Positions 5,369 through 37,095 of a stretch of 39,342 bases of DNA are shown here, piece by piece. Below the pieces are notes generated by a model that was not told the DNA's origin, searched no databases, and saw only the letters and a program-made list of their open reading frames with translations. Numbering within the stretch: the stretch's first letter is position 1; the number at the start of each line of letters is the position of its first letter. The DNA comes from a virus: IMG/VR virus record IMGVR_UViG_3300048918_000187, positions 1 to 39,342 of that record. The stretch is one strand, 5' to 3'. The translations under genes and the position numbers were made by a program.

Positions 5369-5725
5369 TCACTCCCTCCCACCGATGGCGGCCTGGATAG
5401 CGGCTTTGGCATCGTAAAAGCTGATGTGAACCCCTCGCTTACCTAGGGCAAGAACAAGGGCTTCCGACGCGTCCAACAATTCATCCACACGCATCGCGGA
5501 TTGTGCGGCTAGGTGGGCGTGCAGTTCGCTTGCGAATCGGTGGATACGGTCACGGTCGAATTCCGTAACAGGCTGCGTCTTGTCGCAAGTGACGTCTTTA
5601 ATCCACGTAACGCGATGGAGCATTGTTTCAAGCGTCATCCCATCACCCTTCGTCACGTCGGTCATGTCAGCTTCGCATTCGATGCAACGTGCCCGCAGTT
5701 CCTTTCCATGCGTACAGGTGCTCAT
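5369..5725 (-). CDS. Hypothetical early protein with N-terminal Cys motif, 118 aa
   Basis: A 118-aa protein with CTHGKELRARCIEC at residues 4-17, a likely single zinc knuckle (CxxG...CxxC) seen in many small phage proteins. The rest is helical and charged, with no recognised domain. GGGAG lies about 8 nt before ATG. It is the first gene downstream of the operator/promoter module at 5752-5782 and so probably heads the transcript that runs to the 3863-3878 terminator. Confidence 0.65.
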   Translation of the reverse strand: MSTCTHGKELRARCIECEADMTDVTKGDGMTLETMLHRVTWIKDVTCDKTQPVTEFDRDRIHRFASELHAHLAAQSAMRVDELLDASEALVLALGKRGVHISFYDAKAAIQAAIGGRE

Positions 5726-5751: not shown

Positions 5752-5782
5752 ACCCTACCCCTTATTGACCGTTCCGTCAATA
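5752..5782 (-). promoter_or_regulatory. Operator-promoter module, copy 3 (TATTGAC-N6-GTCAATA)
   Basis: The palindrome with arms TATTGAC at 5763-5769 and GTCAATA at 5776-5782 has perfect 7-bp arms and a 6-nt centre. Read leftward, TTGACG at 5780-5775 could be a -35, followed by a 17-nt spacer and TAGGGT at 5757-5752 as -10. The element lies at the very end of the primase gene, 37 nt upstream of the gene starting at 5725. Of 34 aligned positions 27 match the module at 11940-11972. Confidence 0.7.
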
Positions 5783-8178
5783 GCCTGCGCCTCTTGATAC
5801 GCTCGCGCTATTTCTGCCGCGCCTTCCAGCTGCGCCACGGGTCCACCGATACGGACATACAGGCGCGGTTTGCCTCCATCTGGCAGCACCACGTTGTTCA
5901 CGCGGCCATCTGTGAGGCCCGGATGGTAGTCGAAGCCTATTTCACGCATCATTTCGCGAATCTTATTGCTTGCCATCGGCACGCGCAGCGCATCGAGCCG
6001 CTTGGCGAGCGCCATGGAACTGACCCACCCGCCGCAAAAGCCCGGCATCTCCTGCGCCATGCATTCGAGGATGTCTTGCTCCACACGGCCCATGCCGGCG
6101 GCGATAGCCTCGTGGGTGGTGCTGGTGCGTGGCGCGCGGGTCTGAAATCGCGGGTCGAGATCGGAAGGGATAGGCCAGGTATGGAGAAACTCGGCCACCT
6201 TGGCATAACCTTTATCGTGCTTGAACCAATCGATCAACCGCTCAAAATAGCTATGCGTCAGCCCATCGCGCGCTAAATCATCGACATCTTGTTGCGCTGT
6301 GAAATAGATGGCTAAACGCCTGTCCCCACGTTTGATGTGGACGCTGTTGCGGTAGTTGGAGTTGAACCAAAAGTTACCGCAGATATCCTCACTCGTTTGG
6401 TCGAGCCCTTTCCGCGTGATCTGAATGCCTCCCTCCGCCGTGGATATCATCGGCTTGAGCGTTTCTAACGCATCCTTTCGTTTATCATCGATGCATATTT
6501 CTTCCACCACGTAAAAAATATTGCCCCACAACCACGCGTTAAAATTGTTGTCGATGTCTTTAGCGAGTGGGAAATGCACATAGCGCGCGCCGATAGCCTT
6601 GGCCACGCAAAGCGCTAGTAGTGACTTACCGTTTCCTTGCGCGCCTTGCACCAGTGGCGCCCATTGGAATTTATGGCCTTGGTACTGCACGCACGCCGCC
6701 ATGTAGGCCAACAGCTGCATCCGGTCGCCTTCGTCGGGCAGGATTTTTCCAAGGTGATTGAGGAAAGGTTGCACGTCGCCTTCCACGCGTTCGACATAGA
6801 TCGGCGTATAGACGTTCACCCGGCGGCGACCGCTCTCTAGAACGATACAACCGGCCGGTCGATCCGGCTTGAAGGCAATACCTTCGACGCGCGGGAAACG
6901 CACGAGCTGGCTCTCTGTGAACGCCTCATAGGCGTTGCGCACCACGCGGCCGTTCGCGCTGTCCATGATGAAGTTGTAGCCACCTTTAACGGCGCGAAAC
7001 TGGTCAGGCTTCAACAATCGCCCGCCAGGAATCATGACGCGGTGATGCTCCGCGACATACACGCAGCCTTTGAATAGATCAAGTTGCCCCTCAAGCCCTA
7101 AGAATGTCTCCCCAGTGACTAAGGCGGGCTCTGGCATCTCGTGCTCTGCGTCCTTTGGCGCCTCGCGCAACGTGGCCACGGCTTGCGCTTCGAAGGCATT
7201 TATATCAGCCTGTATCGGCTTATCCTGCAACCAGCTTGTCTGCTTGCCGCACGCTTGGCGGATGGTGCGCGGTAGATAGTAGTCCTCTCGCTCGGTCCAC
7301 TTGTCACGCACCAGTGCGCTTTGCCACATGAGCGACTGAATGCGCTCCGCATGGTTGCCCGTCCAGAAGGCCAGGTGTTGCGCAAGCGCCGCATCTGCGC
7401 TTGAGGCGTTGTAGCCGGTATCGCTGTCCGCATCCGGGTAGGCAAGCTGCAGCGCCTCGACGTTGGCCGTCCACAGATCCGCAAAGGCCGCCCGTGAGGC
7501 GTCGCCAAACGCACTAGCAAGCGATCGGCTGGCCATGGCGCGGCGTAGCAGCTCACTGTCCAGCGCCGGCCCGCGCCAGGCATCCACAGGCGTCTCGCTC
7601 CACCATTCCGCATCGTGGCCATTGACGCTCGGCTTATCGGGCGCGAAATAGGTGTTGACGATGGCCTCAAGCGTTGTGGCCGGCGCTTCCCACGCCGCGC
7701 TGCCGCGCGCTGCGGTACCGGTCAAGGCAACGAACCGATCGGCCGTATAGAACTCAATATTGCGCGCTATGTCCCGGCAAGCGTGGATAGGAGCGCGGCC
7801 AGTACCAATAAGATGAAGGCCAGTTCCACTGCTTGAGACTTCCATCGCCGCGCCTGGTAGCTGCGCACGAAGATCCTTTGCGAGCTGCGACCAGCCGCCT
7901 GCAGTCGCGCATCCGTCGATGTCGAGGAACCAGAAGGGGTCGTTAGCCGTGAAGCTGAATCCGACGCCATACGCATCGCCCAGGCCGCCAGCCAAAGCCA
8001 AAGCCGCATCCGCATCAAGCCAATGGTTCGGATCATTGTGAGCCCCCAAGCGCAGTGTGGTGGGATTGAGCGGCAGCTTGTCCATCTTGCCGGGCTTTTT
8101 GCGACTCGGCGCCAGACGATAGAGAACGAATTGCCGATACGCCACGAGGGGCTGCAGTGCCGCCGGTAGAACTTGCAT
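5755..8178 (-). CDS. Primase-helicase: AEP-type primase domain plus SF3-like helicase
   Basis: An 807-aa replication protein. Residues about 1-160 look like an archaeo-eukaryotic primase (prim-pol) domain: WFLDIDG with DxD at 86-88, SSSGTGLHLIG at 115-125 and TADRFVALTG near 145-154. A helical linker follows (about 200-310). The C-terminal half is a superfamily 3 type helicase (DUF5906/NrS-1-like) with Walker A GAQGNGKS at 512-519 and Walker B NIFYVVEEI at 553-561. It would prime and unwind DNA for the family A polymerase. GGGG precedes ATG by about 9 nt. The last codons (IDGTVNKG) are the translation of the regulatory module at 5763-5782. Confidence 0.82.
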   Translation of the reverse strand: MQVLPAALQPLVAYRQFVLYRLAPSRKKPGKMDKLPLNPTTLRLGAHNDPNHWLDADAALALAGGLGDAYGVGFSFTANDPFWFLDIDGCATAGGWSQLAKDLRAQLPGAAMEVSSSGTGLHLIGTGRAPIHACRDIARNIEFYTADRFVALTGTAARGSAAWEAPATTLEAIVNTYFAPDKPSVNGHDAEWWSETPVDAWRGPALDSELLRRAMASRSLASAFGDASRAAFADLWTANVEALQLAYPDADSDTGYNASSADAALAQHLAFWTGNHAERIQSLMWQSALVRDKWTEREDYYLPRTIRQACGKQTSWLQDKPIQADINAFEAQAVATLREAPKDAEHEMPEPALVTGETFLGLEGQLDLFKGCVYVAEHHRVMIPGGRLLKPDQFRAVKGGYNFIMDSANGRVVRNAYEAFTESQLVRFPRVEGIAFKPDRPAGCIVLESGRRRVNVYTPIYVERVEGDVQPFLNHLGKILPDEGDRMQLLAYMAACVQYQGHKFQWAPLVQGAQGNGKSLLALCVAKAIGARYVHFPLAKDIDNNFNAWLWGNIFYVVEEICIDDKRKDALETLKPMISTAEGGIQITRKGLDQTSEDICGNFWFNSNYRNSVHIKRGDRRLAIYFTAQQDVDDLARDGLTHSYFERLIDWFKHDKGYAKVAEFLHTWPIPSDLDPRFQTRAPRTSTTHEAIAAGMGRVEQDILECMAQEMPGFCGGWVSSMALAKRLDALRVPMASNKIREMMREIGFDYHPGLTDGRVNNVVLPDGGKPRLYVRIGGPVAQLEGAAEIARAYQEAQAIDGTVNKG

Positions 8179-8181
8179 TGC

Positions 8182-8370
8182 TTACCCCTGCGGATCAATA
8201 GCTTTCGGCGGCTCGATATAGGTCAGCACGCTTGATTTGTAAACGCGCAAATCGTCCCACTCATCGGAGCCGATTTCCTGCACGTAATACTCGTCGCACT
8301 CGCTACCGACATATACGACTCTCGGTCCACGGCGGTCTTGGTCGTCGCACCAGTAATAGCCGGTTTGCAT
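8182..8370 (-). CDS. Hypothetical acidic protein, 62 aa
   Basis: A 62-aa protein rich in Asp, Tyr and Trp (MQTGYYWCDDQDRRGPRVVYVG). ATG 8370 is preferred over an in-frame TTG four codons upstream because GGGGG is optimally placed before it. It is probably a small beta-rich fold. The gene lies between the TetR-like regulator and the primase, with a 3-nt gap to the latter, so it is cotranscribed. I recognise no family. Confidence 0.6.
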   Translation of the reverse strand: MQTGYYWCDDQDRRGPRVVYVGSECDEYYVQEIGSDEWDDLRVYKSSVLTYIEPPKAIDPQG

Positions 8371-8371
8371 G

Positions 8372-8674
8372 TCAACCCCCAATCAACCGCGCAGCCTTAC
8401 GCCGCAATTCCGCCGGCAACCGCTTGCACGCCGGATGTCGATGCATGATGCCCTGCGCCACCAACGGCACGTGCGCCGAATCCACGGCGAACCACACCAC
8501 CGCATCGCGCAGCGCGGCCATCGTGCCGAAGTAATGCGTAATGAGGCTAGGCGCGACGTGCGCCTGCGTGGCCACGTCCTCACGCGTCATCGTGGCATAG
8601 CTGCCACGTGCGGCCACCAGTGCCGCCGCGCTTAGGATATGGTTGGAACGATCGTCCGGTTGCATGCGTTTCAT
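8372..8674 (-). CDS. Short TetR/AcrR-family-like DNA-binding regulator, 100 aa
   Basis: Residues 10-60 match the TetR N-terminal helix-turn-helix domain: ILSAAALVAARG, then TMTREDVATQAHVAPSLITHYF (HTH about 29-50) and the following L-x-x-A-V helix. TetR regulators are normally about 190-220 aa. Here only about 40 residues follow the HTH, so there is no room for the usual ligand-binding and dimerisation domain, and dimerisation must be reduced or different. The start lies 4 nt after the methyltransferase stop and 41 nt downstream of a TTGAC-N6-GTCAA palindrome, suggesting autoregulation. It is the best candidate for the protein that reads all four such sites. Confidence 0.75.
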   Translation of the reverse strand: MKRMQPDDRSNHILSAAALVAARGSYATMTREDVATQAHVAPSLITHYFGTMAALRDAVVWFAVDSAHVPLVAQGIMHRHPACKRLPAELRRKAARLIGG

Positions 8675-8677
8675 GGG

Positions 8678-9466
8678 TTACTCGTGAGTCTTGGGATCGG
8701 CGCTAGAGTCGGCGCTATTGACGGTGTTGTCAAGAGCTGCGCTTATGAACTCGGCGGCTTGGTGCGGGTTGATCGCGTTGCCGTAGGCGCGCAATCGTCC
8801 CATGCGGTTGGGTACCCCATCAGCAAGCGCGCCAACTCCGGATTTAGATACCCAGGTCGGCCAAGCGCCCTCTGCATGAATTCGCTCAATGGAACGCCAC
8901 GCGAGTGCAATTTCCGAATTTCCAACAGTCTGCGACTGTACCGCCCACGGTAGTCTCGATTGGTTGGCGTCGGAAGCGCACCAATAGTTTCGGTCTCGGA
9001 TATGCGGCGCACCGACGCTCGCAGACGGGAACGGGACACTCCCGAAGGCGTAACCCACGCTTTCCAGGTCAGCGTGTACAAGGTCGATCCAAGCATCGAC
9101 AGCCTTTGCCGCAACTTGTTCTCCAAAGAGGATTGCAGGCTTGCACTGGCTGATGAGGTGGAAGAAAGCGGGCCACAGGTGCCGCTCATCAGCAAACCCA
9201 GCGCCTTTGCCTGCCGCGCTGAAAGGTTGGCAAGGGCAACTCCCGGTCCAGAGTTGTGCGTCGTCGGGCACGCTAGCGAGTCGCAAGGCGAGACTCCATC
9301 CGCCGATGCCTGCGAAGAAATGACATTGTGTAAATCCATCGAGGTCATGGGGCGTCACGTCTTCAATTGATCGAGTGTCCACGAAACCGAACGGGATATG
9401 CCCGGCGTCGATAAGGTTGCGCAACCACTGCGCGCAATAGGGGTCAATCTCGTTGTAATAGTTCAC
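8678..9466 (-). CDS. DNA (cytosine-5) methyltransferase
   Basis: A 262-aa C5 methyltransferase that would methylate phage DNA at carbon 5 of cytosine, plausibly to evade host restriction. The motifs appear in order: FFAGIGG at 50-56 (SAM binding, motif I), GSCPCQPF at 75-82 with catalytic Cys79 (motif IV), LFGEQV near 113-118 (motif VI), APHIRDRNYW at 153-162 (motif VIII) and a C-terminal AYGNAINP block (motif IX/X). It is shorter than bacterial Dcm-type enzymes (commonly 300-450 aa), with a compact target-recognition region. The start overlaps the upstream stop (ATGA). A second long open frame overlaps most of it, and an operator palindrome lies in its last codons. No cognate restriction enzyme is seen. 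Confidence 0.88.
   Translation of the reverse strand: MNYYNEIDPYCAQWLRNLIDAGHIPFGFVDTRSIEDVTPHDLDGFTQCHFFAGIGGWSLALRLASVPDDAQLWTGSCPCQPFSAAGKGAGFADERHLWPAFFHLISQCKPAILFGEQVAAKAVDAWIDLVHADLESVGYAFGSVPFPSASVGAPHIRDRNYWCASDANQSRLPWAVQSQTVGNSEIALAWRSIERIHAEGAWPTWVSKSGVGALADGVPNRMGRLRAYGNAINPHQAAEFISAALDNTVNSADSSADPKTHE
8716..8733 (-). promoter_or_regulatory. Operator, copy 4, upstream of the TetR-like gene
   Basis: TTGACGGTGTTGTCAA on the plus strand (8718-8733), a perfect 5-bp-arm palindrome preceded by TA. It differs at one base from the minus-strand reading of copy 1 (TTGACGGCGTTGTCAA). It lies within the 3' end of the methyltransferase gene, 41 nt before the TetR-like start. A leftward -35 TTGACA (8733-8728) is present, but the expected -10 position is poor. 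Confidence 0.6.
8743..9348 (-). CDS. Overprinted ORF inside the methyltransferase gene, 201 aa
   Basis: An open frame of 201 codons on the same strand as the C5 methyltransferase but in another frame. Its protein is not random-looking: LSARQAKALGLLMSGT, LGSTLYTLTWKAWVTPSG, SRLRASVRRISE and LNPELARLLMGYPTAWDDCA match, as I recall, a hypothetical protein annotated repeatedly in phage and prophage genomes. That recall fits an overprint, because the WKAWVTPSG and LRASVRR segments are the shifted reading of the methyltransferase GYAFGSVPF...GAPHIRDR segment. No good Shine-Dalgarno precedes ATG 9348. It may be a true dual-coding gene or an open frame carried along by methyltransferase conservation. 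Confidence 0.35.
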   Translation of the reverse strand: MTSMDLHNVISSQASADGVSPCDSLACPTTHNSGPGVALANLSARQAKALGLLMSGTCGPLSSTSSASASLQSSLENKLRQRLSMLGSTLYTLTWKAWVTPSGVSRSRLRASVRRISETETIGALPTPTNRDYRGRYSRRLLEIRKLHSRGVPLSEFMQRALGRPGYLNPELARLLMGYPTAWDDCAPTATRSTRTKPPSS

Positions 9467-9810
9467 TTGCTGAGTTTGACCAATTTGTAACCGTGTTGTG
9501 CGGCTACGTAACGAACATGCTCCAATTGCCCGTTCAATCGCTCCGCCTGCTGTTCCTTTTTGTAGGCGGCGATAGCTTTCTTCAGTTCGCTAAACTTGAC
9601 GCCCGCAAGCTTGCACCACGCGCGGCGGATGTCATCATTCATAGCCCAGCCATCGTAGAGGTTTGAGCGTTTTTGCGATCGAACTTCCCCGTTTGGAAGC
9701 TTGATCAATGTCAAGCCTTTGAACACGACGATATCCACGCTGGATAGTTTGGTGCCGTCCGCCAGCCATTCCGCCAGCGGTTTAATGTGCATATCGATCT
9801 TGCTACTCAT
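9463..9810 (-). CDS. Hypothetical protein, 115 aa
   Basis: A 115-aa protein. The start at 9810 (MSSKIDMHIKPL) is chosen for its ATGA overlap with the preceding stop. The middle has a basic, Trp-containing helical region (DDIRRAWCKLAG) and the C-terminus is rich in Lys, Gln and Glu. It has no recognised family. It is tightly coupled to the methyltransferase downstream by a 4-nt overlap. Confidence 0.6.
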   Translation of the reverse strand: MSSKIDMHIKPLAEWLADGTKLSSVDIVVFKGLTLIKLPNGEVRSQKRSNLYDGWAMNDDIRRAWCKLAGVKFSELKKAIAAYKKEQQAERLNGQLEHVRYVAAQHGYKLVKLSK

Positions 9811-10001
9811 TGCCCCATCCTCTGCTGCATTTGCTCGGCGGTCCATGTCCCGTCCATGCACCAGCCGCCGCCGCGGCGATGCGGGAAATGATAGCCGGAA
9901 CACCGGCACGTATTGATGCAAGCCAGCCGCCCCGGCCGCGCGTCGCGCTTAATGCGCTGCGTGCAATTGCGGCGATGGCAGGGGCATTTACCGCGAGCCA
10001 T
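9807..10001 (-). CDS. Cys/His-rich zinc-binding protein, 64 aa
   Basis: A 64-aa protein with CPCHRRNC near residues 6-13, CINTCRC near 28-34 and GYHFPHRRGGGWC near 36-48, about seven Cys and three His. The GYHFPHRxGxGxC pattern is familiar from short phage zinc-binding proteins of unknown role. It overlaps both neighbours (14 nt upstream, 4 nt downstream). Confidence 0.6.
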   Translation of the reverse strand: MARGKCPCHRRNCTQRIKRDARPGRLACINTCRCSGYHFPHRRGGGWCMDGTWTAEQMQQRMGQ

Positions 10002-10173
10002 TGAGAAACGCGCAAAGGTTAAAGGCGTCCTGAAGCGCCGATTTTATTTCCGCGTTCTTATGGGGAGCGGCCCTGTAAGGGGCCACAGCCAACCACCTAC
10101 GATGCATGCGGTCGAAAAACACGCGCGGCTTCTCATGCCTAAATAACGTCCCGCGCTTTGGTTTCCTATTCAT
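9988..10173 (-). CDS. Hypothetical basic protein, 61 aa
   Basis: A 61-aa Arg/Lys-rich protein (MNRKPKRGTLFRHEKPRVFF). The start at 10173 is chosen because the ATG overlaps the stop of the 48-codon ORF upstream (ATGA). Charge and size would allow nucleic-acid or protein binding. No family is recognised. Confidence 0.5.
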   Translation of the reverse strand: MNRKPKRGTLFRHEKPRVFFDRMHRRWLAVAPYRAAPHKNAEIKSALQDAFNLCAFLNGSR

Positions 10174-10316
10174 CGCCGTTGCCTCCCAACCCAATCAAGC
10201 GCCAGACAAATAAACGCCGCCGCGCCTTCGATGTCGCCGCTAATGTGGCGCTGCATCAGCGAGTGGTCGATGAAGCCCAGAAGGAACAAAACCAACGCGC
10301 AATAGAGCGGCCTCAC
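10170..10316 (-). CDS. Small putative membrane protein, 48 aa
   Basis: A 48-codon ORF starting with GTG at 10316 in a GTGA overlap with the stop of the VRR-NUC gene and ending in an ATGA overlap with the next gene. The N-terminal segment PLYCALVLFLLGFI is hydrophobic enough for a short membrane helix, and a second hydrophobic patch (GAAAFICLALDWVG) follows. The gap-filling position and stop/start overlaps on both sides are the main support. Confidence 0.5.
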   Translation of the reverse strand: MRPLYCALVLFLLGFIDHSLMQRHISGDIEGAAAFICLALDWVGRQRR

Positions 10317-10786
10317 AACGTTCCCTCCGCATTGGCAAAACACGCATCGCCGCCATACGCGGCCACGAGGGTGATATAGCGCTGTTGCGCCTCTTCGCGC
10401 GCGGTGCCGGTATAGCGCCAGGCGCTTTCCTTCACTTCACGCGCCACGAATTGGCCGATGATCGTGCCCACGTCGTGCGGCTCAATGGTGCGCTTACGGA
10501 TGCCGATCCAATCGCTCGACTTGAATTGGCGATTCATGGCCGGCGACTCGTTGCACAAGCCGTAGCGCACCGGCACGCCGCGCGCATCGAGCAAGGCGCC
10601 CACATTGTTGCGCCAGAGCAGCACGTCTTTCTCGCCCGCTTCCTTGCGGATACGACTGGTCACGGCCGCCTCACTCAACCCGTGAAAGGCTTCCTGCGGC
10701 GTCGGTTCCCAGCCCATGCGCTGCTTGAGGTCTTGCAGCGCGGCGAACGAGACGTTCCAGTGTTTAGCCCACTGGTAGAGGTTCAT
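10313..10786 (-). CDS. VRR-NUC domain nuclease
   Basis: A 157-aa protein whose residues about 50-145 fit the VRR-NUC branch of PD-(D/E)xK nucleases: VLLWRNNVGAL near 55, SDWIGI with the Asp near 91, FVAREVKES supplying the E-x-K pair near 113-117, and EEAQQRYITLVAAYGGDACFA near 130-150. Stand-alone phage VRR-NUC proteins act as structure-specific or Holliday-junction-type nucleases. A helical N-terminal 50 residues may bind DNA. The start overlaps the upstream stop (ATGA). It probably serves replication or recombination together with the helicase. Confidence 0.78.
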   Translation of the reverse strand: MNLYQWAKHWNVSFAALQDLKQRMGWEPTPQEAFHGLSEAAVTSRIRKEAGEKDVLLWRNNVGALLDARGVPVRYGLCNESPAMNRQFKSSDWIGIRKRTIEPHDVGTIIGQFVAREVKESAWRYTGTAREEAQQRYITLVAAYGGDACFANAEGTL

Positions 10787-11010
10787 TTGGCCATTTCCCC
10801 GAGCGCTTGTATCAGTCGAGCGTGGTCGGTTTTATCGCTCGGTTCGGCCGATCCGTCTAACGCGTCGATGCAATACCAAAGCGCATCAGCAGCGCTACCC
10901 GCCGCCTCGCGCAACTCAATCACTTCCGTCACCGCGCGTTGCAAATCGTGTTTGACCGGTCCGTCTGGCAGCGCGCTCACGGCGGCCTGCATGCGTGCGA
11001 TCGTGCCCAT
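10783..11010 (-). CDS. Hypothetical protein, 75 aa
   Basis: A 75-aa soluble, all-helical-looking protein (MGTIARMQAAVSALPDG). The ATG at 11010 shares its A with the upstream stop (TGATG), which is why this start is preferred over upstream in-frame codons. No family is recognised. The stop overlaps the VRR-NUC start. Confidence 0.55.
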   Translation of the reverse strand: MGTIARMQAAVSALPDGPVKHDLQRAVTEVIELREAAGSAADALWYCIDALDGSAEPSDKTDHARLIQALGEMAK

Positions 11011-11108
11011 CAGTGCACCACCAGCCACGTCACATGCGCGGAGAAGGCCGTCAACGCCAACGCGCACCACATGCCGCGCAGGAACCACTTGAGGTCATAG
11101 AGCGACAT
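11010..11108 (-). CDS. Very small membrane protein, 32 aa
   Basis: A 32-codon ORF (MSLYDLKWFLRGMWCALALT...) starting inside the end of the preceding gene and ending in a TGATG overlap with the next. The central ALALTAFSAHVTWLVV segment could span the inner membrane. Support comes from position and overlap only. Phages often carry such mini-membrane proteins, but no role can be assigned. Confidence 0.45.
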   Translation of the reverse strand: MSLYDLKWFLRGMWCALALTAFSAHVTWLVVH

Positions 11109-11385
11109 GGAACACCTTCAAGCCGGCCAGCACAACAAACACCGCGCAGGTGATAAGAAACGCCTTGATCACGAGGCCAACCATCGTGGCCTTGAAACCA
11201 CTCTCGTGAGGCTTGCCGTGCTGTGCCCATTCGCGGCGCATCGCCTTCTCTTGGGCCGGCGTCTGCTGCGAATGAAACCGCTCGTAGCTCACATCGTTGT
11301 TATGCATCGGCTCAAGCGAGTATTTCTTGTCAATGGTGCGCGGGTCGAATTCGGCGGTCACTTCAATTCCAGTGTTGCGGGTCAT
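11095..11385 (-). CDS. Hypothetical protein with C-terminal transmembrane anchor, 96 aa
   Basis: A 96-aa protein. The start at 11385 (MTRNTGIEV) has GAGGATAT upstream and overlaps the preceding stop (ATGA). Residues 1-65 are hydrophilic, with Gln/Glu/Arg-rich helices, and about 68-92 form one strong transmembrane helix (MVGLVIKAFLITCAVFVVLAG). A tail-anchored topology with a cytoplasmic N-domain is likely. Function unknown. Confidence 0.6.
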   Translation of the reverse strand: MTRNTGIEVTAEFDPRTIDKKYSLEPMHNNDVSYERFHSQQTPAQEKAMRREWAQHGKPHESGFKATMVGLVIKAFLITCAVFVVLAGLKVFHVAL

Positions 11386-11585
11386 GGTTGGATATCCTCG
11401 TATTGGGTTCCGTTCCAAACTTGAAGGCGGGAAAGAAACACTTTGTCTTTCTCGCTACGTTTTGCTTCGTTAAGCGCGTCCAGATGATCGTTTGCACCAA
11501 TCATGACCCAACCATAGCGGCCCTTATACCGGTACGAAATAAACCCTTCGGCTGCTAGCGGCAGATCGCATGTGTGTCGGTGCAT
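11382..11585 (-). CDS. Hypothetical protein, 67 aa
   Basis: A 67-aa soluble protein (MHRHTCDLPLAAEGFISYRYKGRYGWVMIGA). A beta-strand-rich N-terminal half with YRYKGRYGWVMIG is followed by a helix with a DALNEAKR motif and LQVWNGTQYEDI, a pattern known from small phage proteins of unknown function. It begins 6 nt after the Cys-rich gene and overlaps the next by 4 nt. Confidence 0.6.
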   Translation of the reverse strand: MHRHTCDLPLAAEGFISYRYKGRYGWVMIGANDHLDALNEAKRSEKDKVFLSRLQVWNGTQYEDIQP

Positions 11586-11591
11586 ACCATT

Positions 11592-11909
11592 TCAATACGC
11601 ATGCAAAAGAAAGTTTCCACGGCCGTGGTTCCTGCCGCCGCAACGGCATTCGCAGGCGCCATTGCACTTTCCATTAAGGCACTTGGCGTTACAAACATGT
11701 AGCGATGGACGCGCTTTCATTTCAATGGCGCGGGTCATAGGGAGCCATTCGCCATCGGCGGAGCGTCCCACGCGCTTACTGAAGCCGTCATCTTTGATGC
11801 CTTTGATGCCTGGAAACTTGGCCTCGAATTCTTTGTTCACCATGGTAGAAATGGTCAGCAGCTCTGTAGTTTCGCCGTTAAAGTCGCTGAAGTATTTGAA
11901 AGAAGCCAT
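11592..11909 (-). CDS. Hypothetical protein with Cys-rich C-terminus, 105 aa
   Basis: A 105-aa protein. ATG 11909 (MASFKYFSDF) is chosen because the upstream extension runs back through the promoter module and the end of the helicase gene. Residues 1-70 form a polar domain (NGETTELLTISTMV...), and the tail has CNAKCLNGKCNGACECRCGG, seven Cys in 20 residues, able to hold one or two zinc ions. It is the first gene after the operator-promoter module at 11944-11972. Function unknown. Confidence 0.6.
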   Translation of the reverse strand: MASFKYFSDFNGETTELLTISTMVNKEFEAKFPGIKGIKDDGFSKRVGRSADGEWLPMTRAIEMKARPSLHVCNAKCLNGKCNGACECRCGGRNHGRGNFLLHAY

Positions 11910-11943
11910 GGTGTCGTTTTCCGTGGTTCGTTGCGATGGGTTA

Positions 11944-11972
11944 ACTCTATTCCTTATTGACTGCGCCGTCAA
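11944..11972 (-). promoter_or_regulatory. Operator-promoter module, copy 2
   Basis: The palindrome TTGACTGCGCCGTCAA (11957-11972) has TA before the first arm. Read leftward, TTGACG at 11972-11967, a 17-nt spacer and TAGAGT at 11949-11944 (4 of 6 to TATAAT) form a plausible sigma70 promoter whose -35 is inside the operator. The gene at 11909 follows. The module is 27/34 identical to copy 3, including bases outside the palindrome. Confidence 0.7.
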
Positions 11973-13674
11973 CAACAATATTGCAACGATAGAGTTCATT
12001 ATTTATTTTGCCCATCAGCTCGGCCGCATCCTTCGCGCCCAACGTCTGCGCTGTGAGCACGTCCAGGCCGAAAACGTACCAAAAGGCTTTTTGCGCGTCA
12101 CGGCCCAGTGCGGCCTGCCAGCCCAGCCAGCCGGCCATCGCCTGGCGCAGCGGCAATTGCGCTTGCTGGCGCTCGGTATGCCGCGCGTAGATGGCGCCAC
12201 GCGCGGCATCCGGCGCACCGCTAGGGAAGCGTGGCGCACCGTCCACACGGCGCACCTCGCCACGCATAGCGCGCAATACGGCCGGATCCAGCTTAGCGAG
12301 TGCTCCCTCAACTTCCTCTGGCTTGCTGCGCGCGGTCGGCTCCGGCGGCGCCTCGCCACAATAAGGGCATTTGGCCAGTGTCTTTTCGTAAGCCTTGGTG
12401 CAGGCGGTGCAGCTGCGCAACGGAATGACGCCCAGCTGCGAGCCCTTGCTGCGTCGGTCACGCCGCTCCAATGTGTGATAACGCTGGCCATCCGGCAAGC
12501 CGTGGCGCGTGTAGTTGTTCACGTGGTCGATGATAAGCGCGCGCGGCTTGCGACTGGCGGCGATATGCGCCAAACGCTCCGCTGGAGAGAATTCCTCCCA
12601 ACGCGCCATCAATGCTGCATCGATGTCCAGGCGCAACGGACGGCCGAATTGCTGATCGTAGAGTCCTTTGGATTCCGTAGGCCGCGCCATGCTGATCACT
12701 TCCATGGCCGGCACGTCTACGCCTTCGCCCAGGATGTCCACGGAAACGAGCTGCAGGACCTGCCGCGCCTTGAACTTTTTGAACACCTGCACGCGCAGGA
12801 GATCGTCCATATCGCCATGCACCACTTCCGCCGGCACGCCTGATGCGCGGAACGCTTCGGCCTGCTTGACAGCTTCTTCCACGTCCACGCAGAAGGTTGC
12901 GCCGAGTTTTCCAGGCGCCTCGCGCAAGTAGGTTTCCACCACATTGCCCACTAGCTGCTTTGACTTGTGGACAGCCTTACGTAACTGGTCGGGGTTGTAG
13001 TCGCCGCCAGCGCTAATCGCTACTTGCGATAGGTCTAAGTCTTTCGGCGGAGGCGGAGCAACAAGATCGTAATCGCACAAATAGCCCTCCTCGATGAGCT
13101 GGCGCATCGGAACGCCTAGCACCATCGTATGCGCCAAGCCGTCGCTTGATGCGCCCAGCCCTTTGCCATCCGCGCGAAAGCCCGTGGCCGTGGGCAGCAG
13201 CACGCGCTTGACATTCTTGAACTTAGCGATCGCCTTACCAAAGACGTTTTCGCGCAGATAGTGGTGCCCCTCGTCGCCGATGGCCATCTGCACCTGTAGC
13301 AGCCATGGGTCGTCGTCGGGCATGTTAGCGATGGCGTAGACGCTGGCCACGCCGCATTTGCTGTTCGGGTCATAATAGCTGCGCCCAAACTCGGCCATAT
13401 GGCAGGCGACGACTTGACGTTGTAGCTTTTTCGTGCCCACCACGCGATGCCGCACGCCATTACGCGCGAGCGCCATGCTCATCTGCACCACCAGTTCGCG
13501 GCGGTGGGCTATCGCGGCGCAGGCGCCCGGCTCTTTCGATAGCTTGTGCGAGAAGAGAACCGTCTTACCCGCCCCCGTAGCCAGGATCACCACGACGACG
13601 ACGTGCCCGGCGTCCCATTCCACATCGCAGATATCGCTCGCCTGTGACTGATACCAACGTAATTTTGGCGCCAT
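11947..13674 (-). CDS. Superfamily 2 DEAD/DEAH-type helicase
   Basis: A 575-aa helicase. ATG 13674 (MAPKLRWYQSQ) is chosen because the upstream extension crosses the divergent promoter region. Visible motifs are the Q-like RWYQSQ at 6-11, Walker A ATGAGKT at 32-38, DEGH at 134-137 (motif II), an SVDILGEGVDVP segment (motif V-like) and QQFGRPLRL (motif VI). A C-terminal CTACTKAYEKTLAKCPYCGE zinc ribbon follows. It resembles phage helicases of the RadD/UvsW-like type that act in replication or recombination. It heads the leftward early operon behind promoter copy 1. Its last codons (VDGAVNKE) are the translation of the copy 2 regulatory module. Confidence 0.85.
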   Translation of the reverse strand: MAPKLRWYQSQASDICDVEWDAGHVVVVVILATGAGKTVLFSHKLSKEPGACAAIAHRRELVVQMSMALARNGVRHRVVGTKKLQRQVVACHMAEFGRSYYDPNSKCGVASVYAIANMPDDDPWLLQVQMAIGDEGHHYLRENVFGKAIAKFKNVKRVLLPTATGFRADGKGLGASSDGLAHTMVLGVPMRQLIEEGYLCDYDLVAPPPPKDLDLSQVAISAGGDYNPDQLRKAVHKSKQLVGNVVETYLREAPGKLGATFCVDVEEAVKQAEAFRASGVPAEVVHGDMDDLLRVQVFKKFKARQVLQLVSVDILGEGVDVPAMEVISMARPTESKGLYDQQFGRPLRLDIDAALMARWEEFSPAERLAHIAASRKPRALIIDHVNNYTRHGLPDGQRYHTLERRDRRSKGSQLGVIPLRSCTACTKAYEKTLAKCPYCGEAPPEPTARSKPEEVEGALAKLDPAVLRAMRGEVRRVDGAPRFPSGAPDAARGAIYARHTERQQAQLPLRQAMAGWLGWQAALGRDAQKAFWYVFGLDVLTAQTLGAKDAAELMGKINNELYRCNIVVDGAVNKE

Positions 13675-13685
13675 CTCAAATTCCC

Positions 13686-13730
13686 TATTGACAACGCCGT
13701 CAATATAGGCAGACACTGCGCTCCCGTCAA
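13686..13730 (-). promoter_or_regulatory. Leftward early promoter with overlapping operator, copy 1
   Basis: The minus strand carries TTGACG at 13730-13725, a 17-nt spacer and TATATT at 13707-13702, a near-consensus sigma70 promoter for the helicase. The palindrome TATTGAC (13686-13692) N6 GTCAATA (13699-13705) covers the -10 and the predicted start site, where bound protein would block RNA polymerase. The same region is the leader of the rightward 13747 gene. On the plus strand TTGACA (13688-13693) has no clear -10 partner. Confidence 0.75.
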
Positions 13731-13746
13731 CCAACCGGAGCAACAC

Positions 13747-14436
13747 ATGCACTTGCAAATTCATTTGGACGGCACGGAAAGCGACTCTCAGCTTACGCGC
13801 ATTGCCGCCGCCATCAAGTCGCTGCGAGTCTCAAACAATGAGACGATCGGAACACTCAGCGTCAAGCTCGATGCCAAAGAAGCCGTCGCAGCGGTGCGCG
13901 AGGAATTCGATGCGGTAATTAATGGCCCTTTGGCATCGAGCGAGGCCTCGCCCAACTCGGCATCTATCCTTGCGGATGTCGAAACCTCTATGAGTGCCGA
14001 AGCGCCGACCGGCACGGATGCTACTTTCGACGCGGCGGGCCTCCCTTGGGATGAACGCATCCACAGCTCCAGCAAGGCCATTGTTGCGGACGGCACCTGG
14101 CGCCAGAAGCGCGGTGTAAGCGAGCTGCTCGTGAAGAAAGTCGAGGCGGAACTGCGCGACGCCGTGACCGCCAATGGCGACTATGCCCAGGTCGACACGC
14201 TGGATCTGCAAAACGCCGGCTTCGGCGAGGACGTGCCGCCGCCGCCCAGCGATGAAGAACCGGTCGATGCCAAAAAGCAGTTCGCTGAGTTGATGCGCGA
14301 CATCACGCAGAAGTTCCCCGGCCAGTTGCCCCACGTGATCAAGACGCTCAACGAGTCGCTGGGCATCAAGAACCTGGCCGAACTCGGCACGCGGCCGGAA
14401 ATGTTTGATGCCGCGCGCCAGGTGCTCTTTGCATGA
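13747..14436 (+). CDS. Conserved phage hypothetical protein, 229 aa
   Basis: A 229-aa acidic protein and first gene of the rightward replication operon, with CCGGAG about 8 nt before ATG. A central LPWDERIHSSSKAIVADGTWRQKRGV segment (about residues 98-123) is a block I know from phage proteins encoded near recombination and polymerase genes. It is flanked by a Glu/Ser-rich linker and a Pro-rich stretch (VPPPPSDEEPVD). A possible helical domain (KKQFAELMRDITQKFPG) ends the protein. Biochemical role unknown. The context suggests DNA replication or recombination. The stop overlaps the DUF2800 start (ATGA). Confidence 0.7.
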   Translation: MHLQIHLDGTESDSQLTRIAAAIKSLRVSNNETIGTLSVKLDAKEAVAAVREEFDAVINGPLASSEASPNSASILADVETSMSAEAPTGTDATFDAAGLPWDERIHSSSKAIVADGTWRQKRGVSELLVKKVEAELRDAVTANGDYAQVDTLDLQNAGFGEDVPPPPSDEEPVDAKKQFAELMRDITQKFPGQLPHVIKTLNESLGIKNLAELGTRPEMFDAARQVLFA

Positions 14437-20915: not shown

Positions 20916-23405
20916 TTAAGACTCCGTGAAACGATTGAGAAAACCATCTTCGGTTACACGCTGCACATTGTTTTGCGTCAAACGCGGCACACCTTCCGAT
21001 CGGACGAGGGCAGTGTAGATGATTGATACCACAGGTGCGTCCTCTGCCACTTCGCCAAACCCGATCGCTCGGAAGAATATTTCTCGTCCAGCCCACTGTG
21101 GCGCGATCGGAAGAAAATAGGCGGCATCCATAAGGGTGAACGGCATGCCGCTCGTGATGTCGAATACGGCGGTACCGCCGAGACCGCGCTGCACGTTTGT
21201 CAGCTGGTAATTCTTATCCGACGTTTCGGTCGCAGTAGCAAACTGGCCAAGCTGAGCCGTTCCATCGCTATCGACGGCAGCGAAAGAATTCTGTGCAGCG
21301 GCCAACTGTGCGGGCGTTGCGCTTTCCAGACCAAACTTGAGCACTTCTACCGAAAGCGGTTCGCCGCCTGGGGGCTCATCGGCCGTGAAGGTGCCCATAT
21401 TGGATTCCATCACGATCTGAACGGCTTGCTGCCAAGTCTCTTGGCCATCGTAGGAGACTTGAACATTGCAGCCCAACCAACTATTACGACCGTCCGAACT
21501 TGCCGCTGCCAAATACACGCCAATACTGTCTTGGGGACGCTGCGCAGGCAGGTTCATAGCTATGAGTGTCGTCGGACCACTATAGCGAGACGCCGGCACG
21601 CTTGGGGCATTACCTAGGATCGGCTGCACGTTCGAGGTATACGCGCTCTGCCGATCATAGCGCAACGTGAAATCGATGGTCCCTTGACTGAGGGCCATCT
21701 CGTTGATCACGTAGCGCTTGCCTTCGAAGATGACTGGAAACCCACTCGGCAGTTGAAGATAGCACTCCGTATCGGCAAACGGCGTGCTGAGTTGAATTGT
21801 GCCTTGCAATGTGGCATAGGCGATTTTTAAAGCCTTGTCAGCGGCTTGTGTGGCGAGCGTCGCAGATATAGCCACGGGGATCTGAAACGCCTGATCGCCA
21901 ATCGCTTTGACTGTGGATGCGCGGCGGCGTGATGTGACATTTACCGACTGGTAATTCTGCGCCGGGTCGTAGTAGGAGGCAACAATGCGCTGTGGAAATT
22001 CGGTCTCTTGGCGGCGCGTGTTGTACGTTACTAGACCCGTGTCGGAGCCATCGCGCTCGACCAAATTCTCTAGGCTAAGAGTGACTGCCGCATCATCGCC
22101 GTAAGGGTGAAAATGAATCTTGTTGTCGTATTCGGACGCGAAGCAAAAGTACGCCTGCAACAATGGGGCTAAACAGTCCGAAGCGTTCGACGCCGTAGCG
22201 ATAATGTAGCCCGCCGGAGTAGCGTCCGGCAACGGAGATAGATCGATGTCCGTTGCGCCCAATCCGCCACGCTTGCATATGCGGCCGCATACCGTATCAA
22301 GGCTGATAACGCCTGATGGAATAGACGACGCGCTCAAGGACATAGCAACAAAAATCTTATTGTCGCTAACCTCGTCGGCTTCGGTTGTGCGCAATGCGAA
22401 GGTGACGCTGCCATTGCGTGTAGCCGTCCAAACGAAAACTTGCTGGTCTGTGCCTTGGTGAGTGCGTGGCGTCGAATAGTAAATCTCGCCGTCAATATAA
22501 AGGTCGGCCCAGTTGTCCGTCCAAATGTGGATAGTGACGGGAGCACCGGAATTTATATCGACAGTCTTGCGAATCCAGATCGTTTGACCTTGCCCCTGAT
22601 CAGGAATAAGCGTTCCCACTTCCATGCCTTCAAAGAAGTTGCCGAACCCGCCCGGCCCTTCGTTCCAATCGGAGTCATCATAGCTAGGCGACGAGTAGTC
22701 CTCTGTGCTGCCTGGGTAATTCGATTTGTACTTAAAAATATCGGTGTAGGCGACGTTTACCGCCGGAAAGCCTGCTGTGGCGACCACGAACTGAAAGGCC
22801 GGGATGCGGTCGCCGGCCGACGTTACGTCAAAACTCTTAAACACGGCTAGGCACATGCCGCGGTATGCCGGAGTGTTACCGACGCCTGTTATAGCTTCCA
22901 GCGTCGGGTGCGGCATCTGATCTTCGCCGCCGTAAAGAAAATCTACATTAGCCTTCCACTTCGCCGAATCACTTAAAATGGCCGATCCGGGGCGCACGTC
23001 ATAAACTAATTTGCCATCTTGATACACCATCAAGATTTGAGAAACAGTGCTGTCGCGTAACTCGCACGATTCGCACACTGCAATGGCGAAATCTTGTTGC
23101 GCTGTGAATGTCTCCGTTACCGTGCCGCTACCCTTGCCGCCGTCTTTGTGGCGAATTTGCCGGCGCGGGCTGACTTGCACAATCGTGCCGGCGCACATCG
23201 CCGTGCCTTGAATCCATGCGATGACTTGGCCATCCGTGGACGTTTGCGTTTGCCCGTCGCCGATCTTCGGCCCTTTGATGATCGTGGGATCGATCGCACC
23301 GCCAATGTACCCGCCGATAGCCGAACCGATCGCACCGCCAACCGGGCCGCCAAAGTAGGAGCCAACGATAAGGCCGATGGTACTGCCGATTTGTTGACCG
23401 GACAT
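20916..23405 (-). CDS. Tail-tip/host-specificity protein with inserted carbohydrate-binding-like domain
   Basis: An 829-aa protein matching the phage tail protein family (PF13550-like) at the place of lambda gpJ. The N-terminus (about 6-40) is a Gly-rich hydrophobic zipper-like stretch (GSYFGGPVGGAIGSAIGG), typical of these proteins. At about 221-365 a beta-sandwich module is inserted (SYDDSDWNEGPGGFG ... TIWIRKTVDI ... DLYIDGEIYY) that resembles galactose-binding-like domains of glycosidases. The remainder continues the conserved core. It would form the tail tip that recognises the host and triggers DNA release. It sits 13 nt after the NlpC/P60 gene. Confidence 0.75.
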   Translation of the reverse strand: MSGQQIGSTIGLIVGSYFGGPVGGAIGSAIGGYIGGAIDPTIIKGPKIGDGQTQTSTDGQVIAWIQGTAMCAGTIVQVSPRRQIRHKDGGKGSGTVTETFTAQQDFAIAVCESCELRDSTVSQILMVYQDGKLVYDVRPGSAILSDSAKWKANVDFLYGGEDQMPHPTLEAITGVGNTPAYRGMCLAVFKSFDVTSAGDRIPAFQFVVATAGFPAVNVAYTDIFKYKSNYPGSTEDYSSPSYDDSDWNEGPGGFGNFFEGMEVGTLIPDQGQGQTIWIRKTVDINSGAPVTIHIWTDNWADLYIDGEIYYSTPRTHQGTDQQVFVWTATRNGSVTFALRTTEADEVSDNKIFVAMSLSASSIPSGVISLDTVCGRICKRGGLGATDIDLSPLPDATPAGYIIATASNASDCLAPLLQAYFCFASEYDNKIHFHPYGDDAAVTLSLENLVERDGSDTGLVTYNTRRQETEFPQRIVASYYDPAQNYQSVNVTSRRRASTVKAIGDQAFQIPVAISATLATQAADKALKIAYATLQGTIQLSTPFADTECYLQLPSGFPVIFEGKRYVINEMALSQGTIDFTLRYDRQSAYTSNVQPILGNAPSVPASRYSGPTTLIAMNLPAQRPQDSIGVYLAAASSDGRNSWLGCNVQVSYDGQETWQQAVQIVMESNMGTFTADEPPGGEPLSVEVLKFGLESATPAQLAAAQNSFAAVDSDGTAQLGQFATATETSDKNYQLTNVQRGLGGTAVFDITSGMPFTLMDAAYFLPIAPQWAGREIFFRAIGFGEVAEDAPVVSIIYTALVRSEGVPRLTQNNVQRVTEDGFLNRFTES

Positions 23406-35082: not shown

Positions 35083-37095
35083 TTAGCCGGCCGACGAGTA
35101 GTTGACGCCAGTCAGGTAGGCGACGCCCGAGTCGCGGCGGCGTGCCCAGTTGATGTAACGCTCAGCGCGGTAGGCCGTGCTGTTGGTCTGCCACATGCTG
35201 ACGAGGGTGGCCGCGGTCGGCGTGCCGCTGGAACCGGTCGGGGCGTCGGCCATTTCGATCGAGGCCTCCTGCGAAGCGTCGACCGTGACCTGGCCGTCGT
35301 CGGCGAACCAGATATCGGACGCGTTCACCAGCACCAGCAGCGAGCCGGCGGTATCGCCCGGCACGTAGTTGGAGACGATGACCGGAATGCCCAGGAACGT
35401 GCCACCGGTCGGGGTGATGCCAGGATAGGTGGACTGACCCAGCGGGTTCTTCATCAGCGACAAGGCGCGCGCGGTGCGGCCGTCCATGATGACCACGGGG
35501 TTGTTATAGGCGTTGTTGGCCGCATCGCCCACGCTCCACAGCTTTTCCCAATCGGCCGTGATTTCTGCATCGGTCGAGCCGGACGAGGCAAACGCCGTCG
35601 CGCCGTTCAAGATCGACTTTGGCTTCACGTTGGCGGTGCCGGCGTTGGTCGGGTCGATGAAAGCCAGATCCTGCGCTTCCAGCACGGCCGCGGCCAATTC
35701 ATCGCGGATGAGCAGCTCGGCGCTCGGGTTGCTGAAGCGCAGCAGCTCGTTCGTGAGCACGGCGATGCCGGCCGCCTTGAACCAGCCAAAATTGATCGAG
35801 TTGTAATCGACCTTGGTTACCGGCTTGGCCTTACCCTCGCCGACCCAGCCAGCGCTCGCCTTGCTTGTCTGGCCAGCAATGTTCACGTTGAAGGGGATGC
35901 GGCGCATCTTGTTTTCGAGCTGGCCCAGAATCGACTGCGGACGCAGGAAATTCAGGAAGTCGCCCGAATAACGCTCGATGACCACCAACGGCGAGGCCCA
36001 CGTGGTGCCCGTGGTCGTGCCGGCGGCAACGGCGGCTTTCTGCGTCAGGGATTTGGTCTGCATGGCGGCGCGAAGGTCGAAACCATCGTCGAACGCCTTC
36101 ATCGTCTCGACCAGCTCCGGATTGCTCTGGCCGTAATGCTGCTTGGCCAGACGGAACGCCTTACCGGTGTCGCCCTTAGAAGCGATCTGCAGCATGGCGT
36201 ACTGCGCAAAGCCCTGGCCCGGTGCCAGCTCAGCGGCCTTTTCCTTGAGCGTCACGCCCTGGCGACTGGCGCTGCCATTCTCGCCGTCGCTGCCGTCGAC
36301 CGGCCTGGCGTTGGTGGCAGCGCGCTTCTGCAGCACCTCGACGCGCTTCACTTCGATGTCCAGCGCTTCGATTTCGGTGCTCAGCGTGTCGAACTCTTCC
36401 GCTTCGGCGCCGCCGAGCGTTTCGCCGTTTTCGTCGGCCTTGGTGCCCAGCTCGAGCTGGCGCGCCTCTTTGGCGGCCTTCTCTTCCTTCAATCGCTTGA
36501 TGCGTTCTGCAAAATTCATGGCATTGCCCTCATTGGCGGGTTGGGAAAGTTTCACGGATTTCCCCGCGAGAGCGGGCGTTGCCACGGTCTTGAGTCGAGT
36601 GGCGGAGACGCCAGAATCAAGGGCCTTGACGGTTTGAATCGTGGCCTCGGCGTTGGCCGGAATGGTCACGACGGAAAGTTCTAGCCACTCCCAGGATTTG
36701 AAGAGTAGGCCGTTGGTGCCTTTGATCAATTCGACGCCATCCTCAAGGCCGCGAAAGCCGATCGAGAGCCCTTTGACCAGGCCAATCTTGATCGACTGCC
36801 ACGCCTCGTCAAGGCGATCCTTGAGCGTGCCGGCTTCATCCGTCTGCGCCACCTCGATCGACACTGCAATGCCGTTCTTTGTGACCTTGGCGTCAGTGAC
36901 GTGGCCAATCGGCTGCGTCGAATCGTGCTGCCACAGCAGCGGCAGGGGAAGTGAGAACTGGCCGCCCTTGGGCTCGACCACGTCGCCCATGCGATCGGGG
37001 CTCGGCGTGGTGGCAATGCCTTTGATGACGCGCTTGCCGTCGATTTGCTCGGCGGATTTGACCTGCAGCAGCGAGTAAGCGCGTTGAATGGTCAT
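35083..37095 (-). CDS. Prohead protease-major capsid protein fusion (HK97 gp4+gp5-like)
   Basis: A 670-aa fusion. Residues 1-160 are an S78/U35 prohead protease with LLWQHD (His57), VKGLSIGF (Ser111) and WLELSVVTIPAN (139-147, third catalytic region). From about 193 (MNFAERIKRLKEEKA) a long coiled coil to about 265 is the HK97-type delta scaffold, and the rest is an HK97-fold capsid (VVIERYSGDFLNFLRPQSILG, GKAKPVTKVDYNSINFGWFKAAGIAVLTNELLRF in parts, RALSLMKNPLGQSTYPG). Protease and capsid are separate genes in HK97. GAGGG precedes Met193 (36519), so a capsid-only product may also be made. Confidence 0.88.
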   Translation of the reverse strand: MTIQRAYSLLQVKSAEQIDGKRVIKGIATTPSPDRMGDVVEPKGGQFSLPLPLLWQHDSTQPIGHVTDAKVTKNGIAVSIEVAQTDEAGTLKDRLDEAWQSIKIGLVKGLSIGFRGLEDGVELIKGTNGLLFKSWEWLELSVVTIPANAEATIQTVKALDSGVSATRLKTVATPALAGKSVKLSQPANEGNAMNFAERIKRLKEEKAAKEARQLELGTKADENGETLGGAEAEEFDTLSTEIEALDIEVKRVEVLQKRAATNARPVDGSDGENGSASRQGVTLKEKAAELAPGQGFAQYAMLQIASKGDTGKAFRLAKQHYGQSNPELVETMKAFDDGFDLRAAMQTKSLTQKAAVAAGTTTGTTWASPLVVIERYSGDFLNFLRPQSILGQLENKMRRIPFNVNIAGQTSKASAGWVGEGKAKPVTKVDYNSINFGWFKAAGIAVLTNELLRFSNPSAELLIRDELAAAVLEAQDLAFIDPTNAGTANVKPKSILNGATAFASSGSTDAEITADWEKLWSVGDAANNAYNNPVVIMDGRTARALSLMKNPLGQSTYPGITPTGGTFLGIPVIVSNYVPGDTAGSLLVLVNASDIWFADDGQVTVDASQEASIEMADAPTGSSGTPTAATLVSMWQTNSTAYRAERYINWARRRDSGVAYLTGVNYSSAG
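36517..36536 (-). promoter_or_regulatory. Internal ribosome-binding site and start for capsid-only product
   Basis: On the minus strand GAGGG lies about 9 nt before the in-frame ATG at 36519 (Met193 of the fusion), which begins the coiled-coil delta-domain-like part. It could allow extra capsid subunits without attached protease. Inferred from sequence only. Confidence 0.45.

Follow-up and report, generated by a model that had tools for sequence, protein, structure and literature searches.

The viral record IMGVR_UViG_3300048918_000187, whose whole stretch of 39,342 nucleotides is called the window here, contains four copies of the palindrome TTGAC-N6-GTCAA, and this raises the question of what reads them. 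The original prediction located the copies at 5765-5780, 8718-8733, 11957-11972 and 13688-13703, and exactly these four are found. Dinucleotide shuffles of the window give 0.01 copies expected, and four copies are reached in none of 100 shuffles, so an earlier chance estimate of about 0.04 was of the right order of magnitude. All four sites are within the early region, around genes for primase, cytosine methyltransferase, helicase and a small TetR-like protein that we call mini-TetR. On the sequence evidence presented below, the palindromes are very probably operators that the phage-encoded mini-TetR would read, in a regulon that includes its own gene and whose promoters would be turned down.

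Four palindromes in the early region

Sites 1 to 3 overlap the last codons of the gene upstream, which is the primase, the methyltransferase and the helicase gene, respectively, and each has a promoter-like sequence directed leftward. Putative operator 1 (5765-5780, minus strand) is 39 nt upstream of the start at 5725 of a gene for an unknown protein of 118 amino acids (5369-5725, minus strand). Its TTGACG could serve as a -35 box, with a -10-like TAGGGT at 5757-5752 after a spacer of 17. Putative operator 2 (8718-8733, minus strand) is 43 nt upstream of the mini-TetR gene (8372-8674, minus strand), with TTGACA as the -35 box and, again at spacer 17, a weak -10-like GACTCT at 8710-8705. The primase gene (5755-8178, minus strand; DUF5906, PHROG_1829) lies downstream of the mini-TetR gene. 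Putative operator 3 (11957-11972, minus strand) is 47 nt upstream of the start at 11909 of a gene for an unknown protein of 105 amino acids (11592-11909, minus strand), and it combines TTGACG with TAGAGT at 11949-11944, also at spacer 17. The -10 boxes of operators 1 and 2 are poor. In the 10-kb early region, a sigma-70 scan that overall performs no better than chance has two matches only, at site 3 and at the helicase promoter described below.

The four sites had been described as lying 11-45 nt upstream of leftward start codons. The upstream position holds for sites 1 to 3, but the measured gaps are 39, 43, 47 and 13 nt, and the range was therefore not exact. The exceptional gap belongs to site 4, whose assignment to the leftward helicase start at 13674 alone is probably incomplete. 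Read leftward, the -10 box of this site would land on the helicase start codon. Read rightward (13688-13703, plus strand), the site provides TTGACA followed by GACACT at spacer 18, and it is 43 nt before an ATG at 13747, a distance that fits sites 1 to 3. The helicase gene (11947-13674, minus strand) has a putative leftward promoter of its own (13702-13730, minus strand), with the -35 box TTGACG at 13730-13725, a spacer of 17 and the -10 box TATATT at 13707-13702, which overlaps operator 4. The -35 box of this promoter is an extra half-site, reading GTCAA on the plus strand. Site 4 thus probably serves a divergent promoter pair, of which the rightward operon at 13747 is the better match. Because the palindrome forms the rightward -35 box and also covers the leftward -10 box, one bound dimer could close both promoters. 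The composite TATATTGAC-N6-GTCAA plus a further half-site occurs in the same layout in L022, L023, L027 and other loci of related phages.

The rightward operon begins with a gene at 13747-14436 (plus strand; PHROG_11133), and the genes that follow include those for an exonuclease, a Gp2.5-like single-stranded DNA-binding protein and DNA polymerase. Structural genes fill a leftward block between about 19 and 39 kb. Within it, the N-terminal part of the capsid gene product (35083-37095) resembles head maturation protease families and its full length resembles a major head protein family, so this gene probably encodes a protease-capsid fusion. A nucleotide search of the phage collection found no close relative of the window and matched only a methyltransferase stretch. 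This stretch, at 8997-9328, has about 77% DNA identity to Xanthomonas phages, and matches to the methyltransferase gene are the sole nucleotide-level phage matches in the first 20 kb. This likeness hints at a related host or at gene exchange. The original prediction also held that no CI, Cro or other repressor gene is visible. This agrees with the scanned part of the open reading frames, many small ones of which have no match, where no second known DNA-binding regulator was found.

A TetR-like protein reduced to its DNA-binding module

The mini-TetR protein consists of 100 amino acids, which is half the usual length of TetR proteins, and most homologues are of about this size. It matches the TetR_N profile PF00440 with 32.6 bits (cut-off 24, E = 7e-8) and PHROG_8723 with E = 5.1e-25, residues 1-96 aligning with profile positions 18-113 of 251. 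An AlphaFold2 model built from 67 aligned sequences has a mean pLDDT of 94 and seven helices, comprising residues 6-23, 31-38 and 42-49 (the helix-turn-helix), 52-66 (helix 4), and the short helices 69-77, 81-85 and 88-99. The best solved structural matches are TetR proteins, with Z scores up to 12.

Two features of the TetR family, the N-terminal helix-turn-helix (in both profile and model) and a palindrome at the protein's own promoter, are present. In contrast, the C-terminal ligand-binding and dimerisation domain of about 130-150 amino acids is absent, as the chain stops at residue 100. Mini-TetR is thus a variant of the TetR family. Like other members, it has a three-helix N-terminal domain above the profile cut-off, palindromic sites and apparent autoregulation; unlike them, it has only short helices after helix 4 and no normal ligand-binding domain, and it is predicted to act at many promoters of a replication module rather than at one divergent transporter gene.

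The family branch that includes the Vibrio quorum-sensing regulators LuxR, HapR, SmcR and OpaR offers a partial likeness. The LuxR/HapR operator is TATTGAT-N6-ATCAATA, and the arms and spacing of the phage palindrome resemble it. The helix-turn-helix half of mini-TetR also superposes on these proteins: LuxR with DNA, HapR and SmcR are among its best structural matches, at 1.1-1.7 A in the tightest alignments and about 27% identity. A Foldseek search places LuxR-DNA at ranks 2 and 3, with every E value above 0.001. However, mini-TetR is half as long, many TetR proteins tie in whole-chain Z score so that the branch is not singled out, and sequence profiles show no preference of mini-TetR for the Vibrio LuxR/HapR/SmcR branch.

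Longer versions of mini-TetR, of about 166 amino acids, are found at L008:38065-38562, L013:21427-21924 and L103:6046-6552. Their N-terminal extension appears by eye to include a second TetR-type helix-turn-helix, whereas Pfam finds one TetR_N domain only.

Association of the palindrome with the mini-TetR gene

Relatives of mini-TetR are present in 97 phages at about 28-42% identity by tblastn. Most of these phages infect Klebsiella, and the further hosts include Vibrio, Edwardsiella, Alteromonas, Shewanella, Acinetobacter and Pectobacterium. A direct scan of viral contigs with the mini-TetR protein gave no matches; relatives among these contigs were collected via primase and helicase searches, which added 89 contigs. 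In most annotated records, the genes for polymerase, single-stranded DNA-binding protein and exonuclease are on one side, and the divergent side carries the helicase gene, small genes, often a methyltransferase gene, the mini-TetR gene and often the primase gene. The comparison set consists of 104 records with the window's replication module. A mini-TetR gene for about 100 amino acids is present in 102 of them, usually beside the primase gene, and the two exceptions are contigs cut at that place.

Exact copies of TTGAC-N6-GTCAA number 145, in 58 of the 104 records, whereas the same half-sites at any other spacer from 0 to 12 give at most five copies each. TTGAC is also the most frequent of all 5-bp half-sites of N6 palindromes, and no other reaches 34 copies at spacer 6. 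Phage JD001 contains five exact copies in 39 kb of genome, PEAT2 nine, CP-T1 six and PEi21 five, and all four phages have many additional copies with one mismatch, mostly near gene starts. Co-occurrence of gene and palindrome in related phages had been named beforehand as a check, and the pairing does extend to distant phages.

It had also been stated that relatives lacking the mini-TetR gene and keeping the palindromes would speak against the proposed link. Instead, no exact copy is present in 343 kb from seven phages whose helicase or primase genes are related and in which profile search finds no mini-TetR gene, compared with about 23 expected at the rate of the mini-TetR phages. The probability of this result is 6e-11 if sites are independent, and Fisher's test by record gives P = 0.004; these control phages are few, only distantly or partly related and from other lineages, and shared ancestry weakens the comparison. 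Vibrio phage 24, initially chosen as a control, proved to have a mini-TetR gene and six sites. An exact site is missing from about half of the records with mini-TetR, among them the whole phages AeroV_348, PY6, PD0307, R9Y2 and 97.13. In such phages the operators may differ, or the link between gene and palindrome may be weaker. When the recognition helix was compared with operator base 6 for covariation, the signal was not localised to the helix. A de novo search for palindromes at each locus was overwhelmed by the periodicity of GC-rich coding sequence.

The palindrome also recurs ahead of the mini-TetR gene itself, as had been observed for the window. Among the 104 mini-TetR genes, 58 have a site that scores above 13 bits in the 150 nt before the start, whereas the site density of these records predicts 3.3. 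The distance from site to start codon is most often 40-47 nt, a range that includes the 43 nt of the window. When the proteins are clustered at 60% identity, 25.6 of 59 clusters have a site with at most one mismatch, versus 2.1 in random stretches. From this placement, mini-TetR appears to be autoregulated.

The palindrome as a probable part of a promoter

Because TTGAC is also the -35 consensus, the palindromes might be bidirectional promoters, with the arms as the -35 boxes of two overlapping promoters and the symmetry read by no regulator. Indeed, a TAnnnT hexamer is found 16-18 nt after TTGACN in 78 of 138 distinct sites, with a sharp peak at 17 and 18, compared with 10 at other distances. 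However, none of the 138 sites has a -10 box at spacer 17-18 on both sides, although 9.7 are expected if the sides are independent. Moreover, TTGAC is mostly followed by G on either arm (180 of 276), where the -35 consensus has A; an A is present on the promoter side in 23 of 73 cases and on the other side in 8 of 73. In the window, sites 1 to 3 serve a single direction. The missing two-sided -10 boxes largely refute the bidirectional explanation for the N6 sites, and we consider it very unlikely. Because no N6 site has a -10 box on both sides, one arm can be taken as the -35 box, which leaves the other arm to be explained, most simply by a symmetric protein. With the left arm as the -35 box of the promoter, a dimer on the palindrome would deny RNA polymerase access.

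The bidirectional explanation does hold for a separate class of repeats in these phages. In a count over all spacings, TTGAC and GTCAA are also in excess when they are 30-34 nt apart, with 113 examples in all versus about 4 per spacer. Hexamers resembling a -10 box are present on both strands in 30 of 103 distinct examples, compared with 1 of 97 at control spacers, and these brackets are likely overlapping, oppositely directed promoters. They also occur in mini-TetR phages without an exact N6 palindrome, such as AeroV_348, PY6, PD0307 and R9Y2. Brackets with -10 boxes on both strands include L006:12613, L010:14077, L012:31016 and L014:39698, and they are found in the divergent region between helicase and polymerase genes.

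Several other repeats were observed. Pseudoalteromonas phage PY6 (L010) has five copies of GTAGCGC-N4-GCGCTAC, at 7107, 8014, 12382, 19992 and 28188, and at least four of these are inside TTGAC-N30-GTCAA brackets. TTCGC-N3-GCGAA is present in six to nine copies per locus in L030, L031, L032, L037 and L042 and might be a hairpin or another repeat family. Agrobacterium phage 7-7-1 (L108) has seven copies of TACAA-N5-TTGTA, at 22274, 25182, 27661, 28444, 30652, 32799 and 34109, in promoter spacers shortly before genes, and it encodes a distant mini-TetR relative just before the primase. The genome paper of this phage describes five promoters, and the palindrome is absent from its text. We did not count this repeat as a changed mini-TetR specificity; the phage also has an XRE regulator, and its palindrome is in the promoter spacer.

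Other readers and other modes of action

The sites might be read by a host protein or another phage protein, with the mini-TetR gene as a mere neighbor in the replication module. The link between mini-TetR and the palindrome does rest on co-occurrence, and small open reading frames of unknown function are present in the window. However, phages that have related replication genes and lack mini-TetR also lack the site, and the site recurs ahead of the mini-TetR gene. A single host factor is also improbable, because gene and palindrome are paired in phages that are annotated from Klebsiella, Pectobacterium, Edwardsiella and Vibrio. We therefore regard another reader as unlikely. A similarly low probability is assigned to activation of the promoters by mini-TetR bound at the -35 region, a mode of action open to some TetR proteins of the LuxR/HapR type. 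For LuxR, which is among the top structural matches, there are structures with repression DNA and with activation DNA (7amn, 7amt), and the poor -10 boxes of operators 1 and 2 would suit an activator. On the other hand, the operator lies over a -35 box that is close to consensus, from which a bound protein would exclude sigma, and operator 4 covers the leftward -10 box as well.

The palindrome could also be drawn as a leader RNA hairpin for processing or translational control, with a stem of 5-6 bp and a loop of 4-6 nt, and some sites in PEi21 and JD001 end right at the start codon. However, a -10 box at spacer 17-18 puts the palindrome upstream of the transcription start and thus outside the transcript of that promoter, so a role in RNA is the least probable of these alternatives and hardly to be expected.

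For the preferred reading, repression by mini-TetR, we infer the following sequence of events. Host polymerase would fire the early promoters, and mini-TetR would accumulate and bind TTGAC-N6-GTCAA as a dimer. Positioned over a sigma-70-type -35 box, and at site 4 also over the opposing -10 box, the dimer would keep RNA polymerase off. The units turned down would be the mini-TetR gene with the primase gene, two leftward clusters of small genes, the helicase gene, and the rightward operon for exonuclease, single-stranded DNA-binding protein and polymerase. Because mini-TetR is without the usual ligand-binding domain, it would act as a timer set by its own concentration rather than as a sensor. 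This proposed role resembles that of Cro in lambdoid phages, a small phage repressor that lowers early genes including its own. The two protein families are presumably unrelated, and the window has no sign of a CI-type partner or a lysogeny switch.

Relation to known phage regulators and significance

Genes annotated as tetR in phages phiPLPE, CP-T1 and 138 have been suggested to be co-opted bacterial regulators (Comeau 2012, PMC3391216), in a text that mentions no promoter, operator, palindrome or TTGAC. TetR genes are also annotated in jedunaviruses such as JD001, and CP-T1 and JD001 have the same mini-TetR family and the palindromes. No description of a phage TetR operator of this type was found in the open-access literature. 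The mini-TetR family is thus already annotated, and the operator assignment and the switch appear so far to be undescribed. To our knowledge, regulation in phages like JD001 and CP-T1, which include many Klebsiella isolates, is essentially unstudied, and 'TetR' has simply been annotated.

For mini-TetR, an operator and a set of target promoters are now predicted, together with a mechanism of action. Somewhat more probably than the reverse, a large group of tailed phages relies on a ligand-free mini-TetR as master regulator of the replication module, with its operator fused into the -35 box (and into the opposite -10 box at the divergent promoter), such that early timing would be set by one protein without a CI/Cro pair. 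A TetR protein cut down to its DNA-binding module raises the questions of how the dimer holds together and what sets the timing. Placing an operator within the -35 box is a simple arrangement and could be of use in promoter tools. With the palindrome and mini-TetR paired in more than 100 related phages, the arrangement looks like a widespread switch by which these phages would turn down their own early genes.
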